DNA of 64,000 nucleotides from Hydrogenothermaceae bacterium (lineage in GTDB: Bacteria > Aquificota > Aquificia > Aquificales > Hydrogenothermaceae): positions 620,001 through 684,000 of the forward strand of contig JAOABH010000004.1 of the NCBI GenBank assembly GCA_026418455.1, in the 5' to 3' direction. The notes under the pieces were generated by a model. That model saw nothing but the letters and a program-made list of their open reading frames with translations, was not told the origin of the DNA and made no database searches. Below, in pieces: positions 10,184 through 44,851 of the stretch (position 1 is the first letter of the stretch; the number at the start of each line of letters is the position of its first letter). The translations under genes and the position numbers were made by a program.

Positions 10184-11782
10184 ATGCTAAAAGTAGGATT
10201 TATAGATTATAAAAATACTATACCTTTCTGTATAGAAAGTGTTAAAAATGTAGAGGTAATACGGGATTATCCCGCAAACCTAAATAAGATGTTATTTGAG
10301 GGAAATATAGATGTAGGTATAGTTTCTTCTGGAGAGTATATAGAACATTACTACAGATACTTTATATTTCCTGAACTGTCCATCTCTGGCTACAGAGATG
10401 TTAAGTCCGTTGCCATACTTTCAAACACACCTTTAGAAGATGTGAGTACTATCTATCTAACAAAAGAATCAAAAACTTCCGTATTACTTACAAAGGTTAT
10501 ATTTGAAAAATTTTTGAAAAAAAAACCAACCTACAGATATTTTGATTCTATAAAAAATAAAGAAACTGTCTTGGTTATAGGAGATAAAGCTCTTGATATT
10601 CAACAAAAGTTTAGATATTGTTATGATCTTTCAAAAATATGGTTTGATTACACTGGATTACCATTCACATTTGCTCTATGGTGTGTAAATAAAGAGAAGT
10701 TTTTTGAAAACAGAGAAGAAGTTTTACAGCTATACAATCAACTTAAAGAAAATAAAGAGGATTTCTTTAAATCTTTAGAAAATATTAAGTTAGATGGCTA
10801 CCTTAAAGCATATCTAAGAAATATTGATTACTCACTTACAGAGAAACATGTAGAATCTCTCTTAATTTTCTCAGAGTATCTATTTGAATTAGGATATATA
10901 AAATCAATTCCGGATTTTAAATTTATTGATGGAGTAGTTATTACAAGAGATAAAACAAAAACTATCTACAACTTTAATTATAAAGAAGCATACCACAGTA
11001 CAAAAGCGGGAGCATACACAGAGAGTTTTGAAAAGTTTGTTAAACCATCTAATATGAAAACTATTTTAGAAAAAGGACAGCCCATCACTATTTTAGATGT
11101 TGGATTTGGTCTTGGATACAATGTAGCAACAGCTATCAACTTTGCAAAAACTATATCAAAAAAGCCTATGTTAGAGATAATATCCATAGAGAAAGACATA
11201 AACTTTCTTGAAAATATAAGGAAAATCGATTATCCGGAAAACCTATCACAGGAGTATCAGTTTATACTTTCATTAAAACCGGTTACAGTCAATATCTCCG
11301 CTGAAGAGATAAAAGGTTTTCAAACAAGAGAAGAAAATATAACTCTAACAGTTTTAATAGATGAGGGAAGAAAGATAATAAACCTCTTAAAAAGAGAGGG
11401 AAAAAAGTTTGATACCATTTTTTACGACCCATTCTCTCCAAAAGTAAATACGGAGATGTGGACTTTAGATATATTTAGAGTTTTAGGTGAAATAATAAAA
11501 GATGATGGAATCTTATTAACATACTCAAACGCAATACCTGTAAAGGTAGGACTTTTAGAAGCGGGGTTTAAAATAGGATATATATCTCCGGTGGGAAGGA
11601 GAACTCCGTCTCTGGTAGCAACAAAATGTGGAGATATCTATCAGATATTAGAAGAAGAGATTAAAAAAATAAGAAGTTCAAAATTTGCAGTTCCTTACAG
11701 AGATTTAGACTTTTCTTTAACTGGAAAACAGATATGGGAAAATTGGGAAAAAGAGGTAGCCAAAGCCACCTCCGGAAAGTGA
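10184..11782 (+). CDS. Fusion protein: N-terminal MqnA-like chorismate dehydratase + C-terminal MnmC2 (DUF752)-like SAM methyltransferase
   Basis: N-term GFIDYKNTIPF, SSGEYIEHY, GDKALDIQ, WFDYTGLPFTFALW (MqnA family); C-term YKEAYHSTKAGAYTESFEKF, ILDVGFGLGYNVATAI, DTIFYDPFSPKVNTEMW (MnmC2 family). Confidence 0.82.
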   Translation: MLKVGFIDYKNTIPFCIESVKNVEVIRDYPANLNKMLFEGNIDVGIVSSGEYIEHYYRYFIFPELSISGYRDVKSVAILSNTPLEDVSTIYLTKESKTSVLLTKVIFEKFLKKKPTYRYFDSIKNKETVLVIGDKALDIQQKFRYCYDLSKIWFDYTGLPFTFALWCVNKEKFFENREEVLQLYNQLKENKEDFFKSLENIKLDGYLKAYLRNIDYSLTEKHVESLLIFSEYLFELGYIKSIPDFKFIDGVVITRDKTKTIYNFNYKEAYHSTKAGAYTESFEKFVKPSNMKTILEKGQPITILDVGFGLGYNVATAINFAKTISKKPMLEIISIEKDINFLENIRKIDYPENLSQEYQFILSLKPVTVNISAEEIKGFQTREENITLTVLIDEGRKIINLLKREGKKFDTIFYDPFSPKVNTEMWTLDIFRVLGEIIKDDGILLTYSNAIPVKVGLLEAGFKIGYISPVGRRTPSLVATKCGDIYQILEEEIKKIRSSKFAVPYRDLDFSLTGKQIWENWEKEVAKATSGK

Positions 11783-41263: not shown

Positions 41264-41623
41264 GTGAATAGTATGAAAGGTGATATTTTAGTTTTAATAT
41301 CTTCTTTAAGTTTAATAGGTGGAATCTCTTGGTTTTTCTTTGGTGGAAAGAAAAAGGAATCGGAAGATGAAACATTTACAGGAGATCTGGAAACAGTAGA
41401 GTTTAATACAACAGGAATGCACTGTGCTGGATGTGCTGCTGGTATTGAAGCAACCGTAAAACTGCTTGATGGAGTTAAGACAGCATCTGTTAATTTTGGA
41501 ACTTCAAAAGGAATATTCACATTTGACCCATCAAAGGTAAAGAAGGAAGATATAATAAACAAAATAAGAGAGTTGGGATATGATGTCAGTTTAAACTTGG
41601 AGGATTTTGAAAAAAAAAGTTAG
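41264..41623 (+). CDS. N-terminal TM helix + heavy-metal-associated (HMA) domain; 5' part of a split copA-like gene
   Basis: GMHCAGCAAGIEATVKLLDGVKTASVNFGTSKGIFTFDPSKVKKEDIINKIRELGYDV; terminates at TAG 41621 immediately after an A9 run. Confidence 0.85.
   Translation: MNSMKGDILVLISSLSLIGGISWFFFGGKKKESEDETFTGDLETVEFNTTGMHCAGCAAGIEATVKLLDGVKTASVNFGTSKGIFTFDPSKVKKEDIINKIRELGYDVSLNLEDFEKKS
41610..41619 (+). promoter_or_regulatory. Candidate slippery site (A9 followed by G) for -1 recoding
   Basis: HMA frame GAA AAA AAA AGT TAG; -1 frame continues AAG TTA GAG GAG ATA GGT GAT into the ATPase. Confidence 0.6.
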
Positions 41624-41691
41624 AGGAGATAGGTGATCTTAAAAAGAGATTAACCGTATCCGTTGTTTGTTTAATCTTTCTCTTCTTTTCA

Positions 41692-43551
41692 ATGTTTCTA
41701 CCTGATCCTACCAATCACTATTTTCAGTTTGTTTTTGCATCTATCATTCAGTTTTATGCCGGAATGGAGTTTTTCAGGTCTTCTATTATAGCTTTAAAGA
41801 ACAGACTAGCTGATATGAATCTACTTGTATCTATAGGGACATTCTCCGCATATTTATACTCTGTATTTGTATTATTCTTTGGTAATTTGCTACCGGAAAA
41901 TGTGAGGCATATCTACTTTGAAGCAAGTGGGTCTGTAATAACTTTTGTTTTACTTGGAAGATTTCTTGAGGCAAAGGCAAAGTTTAAAGCTACAGACTTT
42001 ATGAAAAAACTTTTAAATCTAAAGCCAAAAAAAGCAACAGTCGTAGTTGATGGAAAAGAGTATGAGATAAACGCTGAGAACATAGTAAAAGGAGATATTG
42101 TAATTATTAAACCGGGAGATGTTATTCCGGTAGATGGTGTTGTTTTGGAAGGACAGTCAGAAGTTGATAAATCAAGTATAACCGGAGAGTCTAAACCAGA
42201 GTTTGTAAAAGTAGGAGATACAGTTATATCGGGAAGTGTGAACCAGATAGGTGTTTTAAAGATAAAAGCTTTAAAAAGTGCAAAAGAAAGTGTTATAAAC
42301 CAGATAATAGATTTGCTATTACAAGCTCAAAGTAGAAAGCCACAGATAGGAAGGTTTGCTGACAGAATAACTCAGTTTTTCGTCCCGATTGTTCTTATAG
42401 TTGCAATACTGACTTTTGACTTATGGTATGTATTTTTCAACTCTATTGAATATGCTTTTGTCAATATGGTTGCTGTATTGGTTATAGCCTGTCCCTGTGC
42501 ATTGGGACTTGCAACTCCCATTGCCATAGTGAATACTGTTGGAAGAGGTGCAAAAGAGGGTATTCTATTTAAAAATCCGGAAATTATAGAAAAGATAACA
42601 AAAATAGATATTGCCGTTTTTGATAAAACTGGGACATTAACAACAGGAAAGATGGAAGTTAAGGAAAGTTTGATAGTAGATGATAGGTTTTTACCCTATA
42701 TTTACTCCTTAGAAAAAGATATAAATCATCCAATATCTAAAGCCATAGTTAAATTTTTAGGGGATGTAAGAGAGGAAAAGTTAGAATCTAAAACAGTTAT
42801 AGCGGGAGAAGGTATAATCGGAAAAGCAGACGAAAATCTTATCATTGTGGGAAATTTGAAGATATTGGAAAGGTATAACATTAAGATGAGTAAAGATGTT
42901 GAAAGTTTTTATAACAGATACAAGGAAAAAGGAGATACTGTAGTATTTGCAGCTGTAGAAAAGGAGATTGTTGCAGTTTTCTCTATCTCCGACAATCTAA
43001 GGAAGGAAGCAAGAGAGGTTATAGAGTATTTAAAAAACAGAGGTGTAAAAACCGTTATGTTAACAGGAGATAATCAGACTGTAGCCAGAGAGATCGGATC
43101 CCAGCTAAATATAGATGAATACAGAGCAAATCTAACACCATTAGATAAATACAACGAAATTATAAAATTCAAAAATCAAGGTAAAAATGTTATGTTCGTA
43201 GGAGATGGGATAAATGATGCTCCGGCAATGTCAGCTTCTGATATAGGTATAGCAGTAGAAAGTTCAACAGATATAGCAAAGGAAAGCGGAGATATAATCC
43301 TGATGAACACAGATTTAAAAGGTGTGATTAAAGCTTTAAATCTATCTGTAATAGGTCTCAAAATAATAAAGCAAAATCTCTTTTGGGCCTACATATACAA
43401 CATCATAGGAATTCCTTTGGCAGTAGGTTTATTTTATCCTATATTCGGAGTTTTACTTAATCCAGTGTATGCCGGTATAGCAATGTCTCTAAGTTCAGTC
43501 AGTGTAGTTCTCAATAGTTTGAGGATAAGATTGGTTAAGATAGATAAATGA
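41692..43551 (+). CDS. copA: Copper-type P1B ATPase body; frame is open from 41611, first ATG is inside the first TM helix
   Basis: ACPCALGLATP, DKTGTLTTGK, GDGINDAPAMSASDIGIA, YN and MSLSS motifs of the Cu+-ATPase subgroup. Confidence 0.9.
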   Translation: MFLPDPTNHYFQFVFASIIQFYAGMEFFRSSIIALKNRLADMNLLVSIGTFSAYLYSVFVLFFGNLLPENVRHIYFEASGSVITFVLLGRFLEAKAKFKATDFMKKLLNLKPKKATVVVDGKEYEINAENIVKGDIVIIKPGDVIPVDGVVLEGQSEVDKSSITGESKPEFVKVGDTVISGSVNQIGVLKIKALKSAKESVINQIIDLLLQAQSRKPQIGRFADRITQFFVPIVLIVAILTFDLWYVFFNSIEYAFVNMVAVLVIACPCALGLATPIAIVNTVGRGAKEGILFKNPEIIEKITKIDIAVFDKTGTLTTGKMEVKESLIVDDRFLPYIYSLEKDINHPISKAIVKFLGDVREEKLESKTVIAGEGIIGKADENLIIVGNLKILERYNIKMSKDVESFYNRYKEKGDTVVFAAVEKEIVAVFSISDNLRKEAREVIEYLKNRGVKTVMLTGDNQTVAREIGSQLNIDEYRANLTPLDKYNEIIKFKNQGKNVMFVGDGINDAPAMSASDIGIAVESSTDIAKESGDIILMNTDLKGVIKALNLSVIGLKIIKQNLFWAYIYNIIGIPLAVGLFYPIFGVLLNPVYAGIAMSLSSVSVVLNSLRIRLVKIDK

Positions 43552-43618: not shown

Positions 43619-44851
43619 ATGAATAAACCTGAAATACTTGCACCTGTTGGACATTACGAAGGACTTGCTGCTGTTATAAAAGCAGGGGCAGATGCTATAT
43701 ATATGGGCTGTGGTAAATTAAACCAGAGAGCCTTAAAAAGTGAGTTTGATATAAAAGATGTGGCAGAGATAAGGAAAATCACACAGGATAAAGGTTTAAA
43801 ACAGTACATAGTATTAAACTCAATAGTATTTGAAGATGATATTCCTTGGTTAAACGAGACATTAGATCAGCTTAAAGAGATAGGAGTAGATGCTGTCATC
43901 GGTTGGGATATGGCTGTGTTATCTGGAGCAATACAGAGAGGTATCACTACTCACCTATCTACCATGGCTTCAGTTTCAAACTCACAGGCTGCACTGTTTT
44001 ATCAACAGCTTGGAGTAAAGAGAATTGTCCCAGCAAGAGAAGTGAAGCTTGAAGGACTTTTAGCTCTGAAAGAAAAAACCGACCTTGAGATAGAGATTTT
44101 TGTCCACGGTGCTATGTGTATGGCTGTGTCCGGAAGATGTTTTTTAAGCCATGATGTATTTGAGACTTCTGGTAATAGAGGAGAGTGTTATCAAGTTTGT
44201 AGACACGAGTTTGAAGTAAAGATAACATCAAAGAATACAGGAACGGACTTCATACTTGGCTCTGACTATATACTATCTGCAAGAGATTTGGTAACACTAA
44301 ACTTCATAGACAAACTTATGTGGGCTGATAGCTGGAAGATAGAGGGAAGAAATAAAAACCCAGATTATGCATACCTTGTAACATACGCATACAGAGAAGC
44401 AAGAGATAGAATACTAAATGGAGAGTGGAACACGAAAGGATACCAAGATCTATGGGATCTACTTGAGAGAGCATATCATAGAGAGTGGGATAGTGGATTT
44501 TACTTCGGACAAGGACTGTTTGGTTTAAATGCTTCCATAGCAAAGGAGAAAAAAGTTTATGTGGGAGAGGTTATAAAGTATTATCCTAAAATATCTGTTG
44601 CAGAAGTTAGGATAGTAAATAATCCAATGAAAATTGGAGATACAATCCATATAATAGGAAAAACTACCGGTGTTGTGAGGCAAAAAGTGGAATCTATGCA
44701 GATTGATAGACAGAATATAGAAGTTGCAGAGAGAGGAATGGTTGTAGGACTAAAAACAAATGAAAAAGTAAGAGTTGGAGATAAAGTTTACCTAATGCAA
44801 GAAGTAGATGTTTCTGAAATTTTAGAGAAGAAAAGTCCTGCTAATGTTTAG
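43619..44851 (+). CDS. Peptidase U32 family protein (tRNA hydroxylation TrhP/RlhA-like superfamily)
   Basis: EILAPVGHYEGLAAVIKAGADAIYMGCG, HGAMCMAVSGRCFLS, GNRGECYQVCRHEF. Confidence 0.92.
   Translation: MNKPEILAPVGHYEGLAAVIKAGADAIYMGCGKLNQRALKSEFDIKDVAEIRKITQDKGLKQYIVLNSIVFEDDIPWLNETLDQLKEIGVDAVIGWDMAVLSGAIQRGITTHLSTMASVSNSQAALFYQQLGVKRIVPAREVKLEGLLALKEKTDLEIEIFVHGAMCMAVSGRCFLSHDVFETSGNRGECYQVCRHEFEVKITSKNTGTDFILGSDYILSARDLVTLNFIDKLMWADSWKIEGRNKNPDYAYLVTYAYREARDRILNGEWNTKGYQDLWDLLERAYHREWDSGFYFGQGLFGLNASIAKEKKVYVGEVIKYYPKISVAEVRIVNNPMKIGDTIHIIGKTTGVVRQKVESMQIDRQNIEVAERGMVVGLKTNEKVRVGDKVYLMQEVDVSEILEKKSPANV

Follow-up and report, generated by a model that had tools for sequence, protein, structure and literature searches.

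Few non-mobile chromosomal genes are known to undergo conserved recoding. In Escherichia coli, the zero frame of copA encodes the full pump, and a slippery site, a pseudoknot and the nascent chain are reported to give rise to the 70-aa chaperone CopA(Z) (Meydan 2017, Drees 2017; PMC5009743, PMC7558416, PMC9548414). Thermus thermophilus dnaX undergoes transcriptional slippage at a nine-base run, and about half of its product is full length (PMC5009743). In the "reverse" dnaX frameshift genes, it is the long product that needs recoding, at a poly-A run of mostly A10; no metal pump is named in the main text of that study (Antonov 2013, PMC3711429). Streptococci encode CupA, a membrane-anchored copper chaperone whose fold matches the N-terminal domain of its CopA (PMC7558416).

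Here we describe a copA gene in a 64,000-nt stretch of DNA (hereafter the window) in which the copper-binding HMA domain and the pump lie in different frames of the + strand. The zero-frame open reading frame (41273-41623), hereafter the stub, encodes 116 aa comprising an N-terminal hydrophobic helix (ILVLISSLSLIGGISWFFF), a basic linker and one HMA domain (GMHCAGC), and ends in EKKS followed by a stop. Its 3′ end reads GAG GAT TTT GAA AAA AAA AGT TAG across a run of nine A (A9; 41610-41618) that includes the −1 heptamer A AAA AAA at 41611-41617, and the TAG at 41621-41623 closes the HMA frame. The pump frame, in −1, is shut upstream by a TGA at 41608-41610 that directly precedes the slip codons. 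It is open from 41611 to 43551 (646 aa plus stop) and encodes the membrane helices, A-domain, CPC, DKTGT and C-terminus of a P1B-1 Cu+-ATPase. From the opening of this frame at 41611, the window gene has no ATG, GTG or TTG upstream of the ATG at 41692-41694, which is codon 28 and falls within the first pump helix. The initial annotation had reported this split, with the HMA stop at 41621, a −1 continuation, a pump frame closed at 41608 and a first ATG inside the helix, and each of its sequence points checked out except the start of the HMA frame. The mechanical ORF list places that start at GTG 41264; ATG 41273 is the likelier start based on an AGGTG upstream of it and a Met aligned in relatives.

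The stub matches the Pfam HMA domain PF00403 (61.4 bits, cut-off 24.8) and scores 57.6 bits against the CopZ model NF033794, below the cut-off of 95. The −1 frame matches the NCBIfam copper-translocating P-type ATPase TIGR01511 (577.1 bits, cut-off 397), and its translation contains the motifs CPC, DKTGT, YN and MSLSS, bearing out the earlier statement that the downstream catalytic motifs are intact. The HMA domain reaches the same polypeptide as this P1B-1 pump only given a slip at A9. When aligned to Archaeoglobus fulgidus CopA (723 aa, 3j09), residue 105 of the stub corresponds to residue 67 and residue 4 of the −1 frame to residue 78, a spacing of 12 residues in the slip-fused product against 11 in A. 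fulgidus CopA. By this alignment the −1 segment begins directly after the HMA domain and continues the canonical HMA-to-helix spacing, in agreement with the normal linker proposed initially. A structure model of the stub predicts a ferredoxin-like HMA fold, with pLDDT below 50 at the N-terminus; as the model supports the HMA fold only, the predicted membrane helix rests on hydropathy. In the stubs inspected from relatives, a basic stretch likewise comes after a hydrophobic helix, and the earlier proposal that the HMA product has an N-terminal membrane helix, unlike CopA(Z), holds by hydropathy in the relatives examined.

The stub carries the sole HMA domain in the window's genome, in which no second copper chaperone gene was found. 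Most of the family likewise has a single HMA, and a few g2 genomes carry extra HMA genes. The window's genome also encodes a paralogous P1B ATPase in a single frame (contig C8, 9375-11129), with a Cys-rich N-terminus (SCSCGPLSLSEEKNAECYQC..CCFGC) where an HMA domain would be expected and none recognized; it is possibly of the cuproenzyme-assembly type.

In comparison with E. coli copA, the frame change again follows an HMA domain, and one copA gene would give a Cu+ pump and an HMA-only product. The initial annotation cited this precedent, and the pairing of products from one gene stands, while the logic is reversed: here the zero frame is the stub, ending at 41621-41623, and the pump needs the slip. 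The site also differs in being an A9 run for which we found no conserved stimulator, and the stub in having an N-terminal hydrophobic helix. Thermus dnaX resembles the window gene in its nine-base homopolymer, thermophilic host and two products per gene (PMC5009743), but its long product is read from the unslipped frame and it belongs to another protein family. The "reverse" dnaX genes share the requirement for recoding at poly-A to make the long product, in a DNA polymerase gene. Like streptococcal CupA, the stub is a copper-binding domain matched to the N-terminal domain of its pump, with a membrane anchor that here is predicted. CupA, however, comes from a separate gene and has a cupredoxin fold, whereas the stub is a ferredoxin-like HMA encoded within the gene of the pump itself.

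We searched 41 genomes of the same family for orthologs. Nearly all family genomes that have the gene encode a pump frame of ~640-650 residues lacking the HMA domain; the copA gene is absent from two family genera. The HMA domain is retained in 34 genomes from 8 genera, and in all 34 it lies in a different frame from the pump. The junction is exactly G-A9-G in 33 of these, including genomes assembled into one or two contigs, and the HMA frame is 115-136 residues long, or 197-200 where it is open further upstream. Two of the split loci match records of a Sulfurihydrogenibium MAG and an Aquificota MAG. We take the family to be the Hydrogenothermaceae. In the remaining genome, a draft MAG (G003, contig C196) with 7% contamination, the copA junction has A8, seen in no other family member; its pump would need a +1 or −2 shift, or a transcript one A shorter. 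In another relative (G029, contig C37), the copA pump contains 16 internal stops while the A9 junction is kept, and this copy is either decayed or misassembled.

Outside the family, no split arrangement was seen when 136 genomes of the phylum were searched with the stub. The seven copA genes that we read from the order's sister family encode HMA and pump in one frame and lack both the N-terminal helix and an A9 at the junction. In the protein tree, the split genes group as a single clade (SH-aLRT 99) with a single change of state, and most full-length members share 47-60% identity with the window's pump, indicating that the clade is deep. The initial annotation had held that an uninterrupted frame without a slippery run in relatives would count against it; the comparison instead returned the same frame change at exactly A9 in 33 of 34, and no reversion to an in-frame fusion among the sampled family members.

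Gene neighborhoods are less constant. UPF0114 and U32 peptidase genes neighbor copA in the window's genus and in g9, whereas in g6 and g7 the neighbors are alanine racemase-like and phosphodiesterase-like genes (names read from sequence by eye). As the neighbors differ among genera, what is conserved is the two-frame unit rather than an operon. The U32 peptidase-family gene of the window (43619-44851) lies directly 3′ of the pump, as it does in a g9 relative, and its best model is TrhP-like, with a score below that model's cut-off.

The junction is constrained at the nucleotide level. All 33 aligned junctions read GAA AAA AAA followed by AG (zero frame) or AAG (−1 frame), while the flanking residues vary. 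Across 28 full-length conceptual fusions, the amino acid never changes at 14 Lys/Glu columns. Of these, only the four junction columns (GAA AAA AAA AAG) keep the same codon throughout, and all 10 others vary. The third junction Lys is always AAG even though AAA makes up 78% of Lys codons in these pumps, so that the run is fixed at nine on either side. In 28 of 33 species a single residue separates the second Lys codon from the zero-frame stop, and in the other five there are two or three. Where a Leu codon stands at this site, it is TTA or CTA in 27 of 29 cases, compared with 44% in the rest of these pumps. In every case the third frame meets a stop within 2-9 codons, so other slips end quickly. 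These junction counts are raw and ignore shared ancestry, in a clade that is deep. Taken at the sequence level, they indicate that selection acts on the junction nucleotides. The stub shares its sequence with the pump, and only the conservation of the stop and the absence of in-frame fusions allow selection on the stub itself to be separated.

Homopolymer runs were counted in 416 kb of coding DNA, made up of 388 ORFs that were 150 aa or longer, from 400 kb of genome stretches plus the window, with expectations taken from synonymous shuffles. We observed 2 A9 runs in coding DNA against 21.5 expected, 43 A8 runs against 72.6, and 1 T9 run against 8.7; exact A9 occurs just 14 times in 1.54 Mb. 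Nine is therefore a run length that the organism strongly avoids. Avoidance has been argued for slippage-prone runs (Baranov et al. 2005, PMC1088944), and it can also reflect mutational slippage. The genome's own dnaX is a single 491-aa frame with no run longer than 7 in the locus, and therefore offers no in-genome control for slippage. Besides the copA run, the window has a single exact A9 (10517-10525), which is in frame in a 532-aa ORF, where slippage would give a truncated product. Outside the window, a porin-like outer-membrane gene (contig C3, 302233-302243) is split by −1 at an A9 after 154 aa, with the rest in the −1 frame. It is intact in 14 relatives and the two closest have no A9 at the site (AAAAAAGAAAG), for which reasons this split looks like a private indel or error.

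From the sequence comparisons, we consider it very probable that copA in this family is expressed through recoding of one kind or the other, transcriptional or ribosomal. Our main reading, to which we assign a probability of roughly two-thirds, is that copA is a conserved obligatory recoding gene, with transcriptional slippage at A9 as its most likely mechanism, yielding the full pump and the HMA-only stub. Under this reading, standard decoding of A9 mRNA would produce the HMA protein of 116 residues, which is probably membrane-anchored. Slipping by one base within the run would join the HMA domain to the ATPase and give a full Cu+ pump of ~760 residues. Most likely RNA polymerase would insert an extra A and so produce A10 mRNA; removal of two A would likewise restore the frame. 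A single gene could in this way set the ratio of pump to a matched copper-binding stub. The initial annotation had interpreted the locus as one gene making an HMA-only product and a full pump, and the A9 and frame change kept in 33 of 34 genomes support that interpretation. It had left ribosomal frameshifting and transcriptional slippage side by side; both are retained here, with slippage now favored.

In the ribosomal alternative, programmed −1 frameshifting at A AAA AAA (41611-41617) would give the same two products from an unchanged mRNA. The heptamer fits X XXY YYZ in the zero frame in 33 of 34 genomes, and the only tRNA-Lys found in the window's genome is tRNA-Lys(UUU), as in E. coli, so a ribosomal slip at this site is not disfavored. 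In E. coli reporters, cassettes of A7-A11 yielded 10-63% frameshift product, although slipping by polymerase and ribosome was apparently not separated there (PMC3711429). Seven or eight A would suffice for ribosomal frameshifting, yet exactly nine are kept, and the linker, which otherwise varies, retains the Glu before the run and the Lys after it. Nor are the usual stimulators conserved: the window itself has a GGAGG ~8-12 nt upstream of the run, but across species a Shine-Dalgarno interaction of −5 kcal/mol or below is found in 15%, compared with 21% at control positions, and downstream folding (nested structures only) is no better than in control windows, with a mean z of ~−0.5 in 33 species against −0.4. 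We therefore regard transcriptional slippage as likelier, based on the lack of conserved stimulators and an exact A9 that exceeds the ribosomal need of seven by two A, and ribosomal frameshifting as possible but rather unlikely. A conserved run of at least nine A on the sense strand is what marks a transcriptional slippage gene, and exactly A9 is found in 33 of 34. A second route to two proteins would be a separate start for the pump, either on its own or through re-initiation coupled to the TAG, so that the ATPase would lack the HMA. For A. fulgidus CopA, a shorter chain without the N-terminal HMA has been solved (3j08), and the 20 nt 3′ of the run are often Shine-Dalgarno-like, though this stretch is Glu-rich. 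However, an ATG matching 41692 occurs in two genera (g1, g9) but is missing from most of the other relatives, ~10 species have no ATG, GTG or TTG within the first 60 pump-frame codons, and many lack any such codon before or within the first helix, leaving no consistent start codon. A separate start would also leave the invariant A9 unexplained, and the canonical HMA-to-helix spacing carried on by the −1 frame counts against it; we judge it improbable.

The remaining explanations place the change in the DNA itself. If the run were a phase-variable contingency tract, its length would vary between cells and switch the full pump on or off. An A9 is hypermutable in principle and G003, with its A8, could represent one such state, but phase tracts vary between isolates, and in this comparison across species the run is exactly 9 in 33 of 34, always in the "off" frame. 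With run length constant, we reject phase variation, which we hold to be very improbable. A homopolymer sequencing or assembly error, or a recent pseudogene, had been named initially as the main alternative. Homopolymers are error-prone, the porin-like gene, split at an A9 in the window's genome alone, indicates that such events exist, and G029 carries a decayed or misassembled pump copy. Against this, run length and frame are identical in 33 assemblies from 8 genera, the catalytic motifs are intact and the codon constraint is confined to the junction, and with this conservation we reject error or decay at this locus as scarcely credible.

As to function, the stub would probably serve as the missing CopZ-type chaperone. 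By analogy with streptococcal CupA, we infer a copper chaperone or sensor that is anchored in the membrane and paired with its own pump. We regard as evenly balanced the fuller proposal that synthesis of the full Cu+ pump depends on an RNA polymerase slip at the invariant A9, which would set at the level of transcription its ratio to a membrane-anchored HMA chaperone from the same gene, in effect reinventing, independently and in reverse, the CopA/CopA(Z) arrangement of E. coli. Frameshifting in E. coli copA, slippage at nine bases in dnaX and genes that depend on recoding for their long product are already known. As far as the literature examined shows, a copA whose reversed logic, A9 site and membrane-helix stub extend across a family is new, and it may possibly be listed as an unnamed GeneTack cluster.

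For annotation across the whole family, gene callers can be expected to list a truncated ATPase and a small HMA protein at this locus. The nine-base run, being invariant, provides a clean natural setting in which to test transcriptional against ribosomal slipping in thermophiles. A second, apparently independent copA case, with reversed logic and a different slip site, would suggest that evolution has twice found the solution of producing a pump and its metal-binding domain in a set ratio from a single gene.
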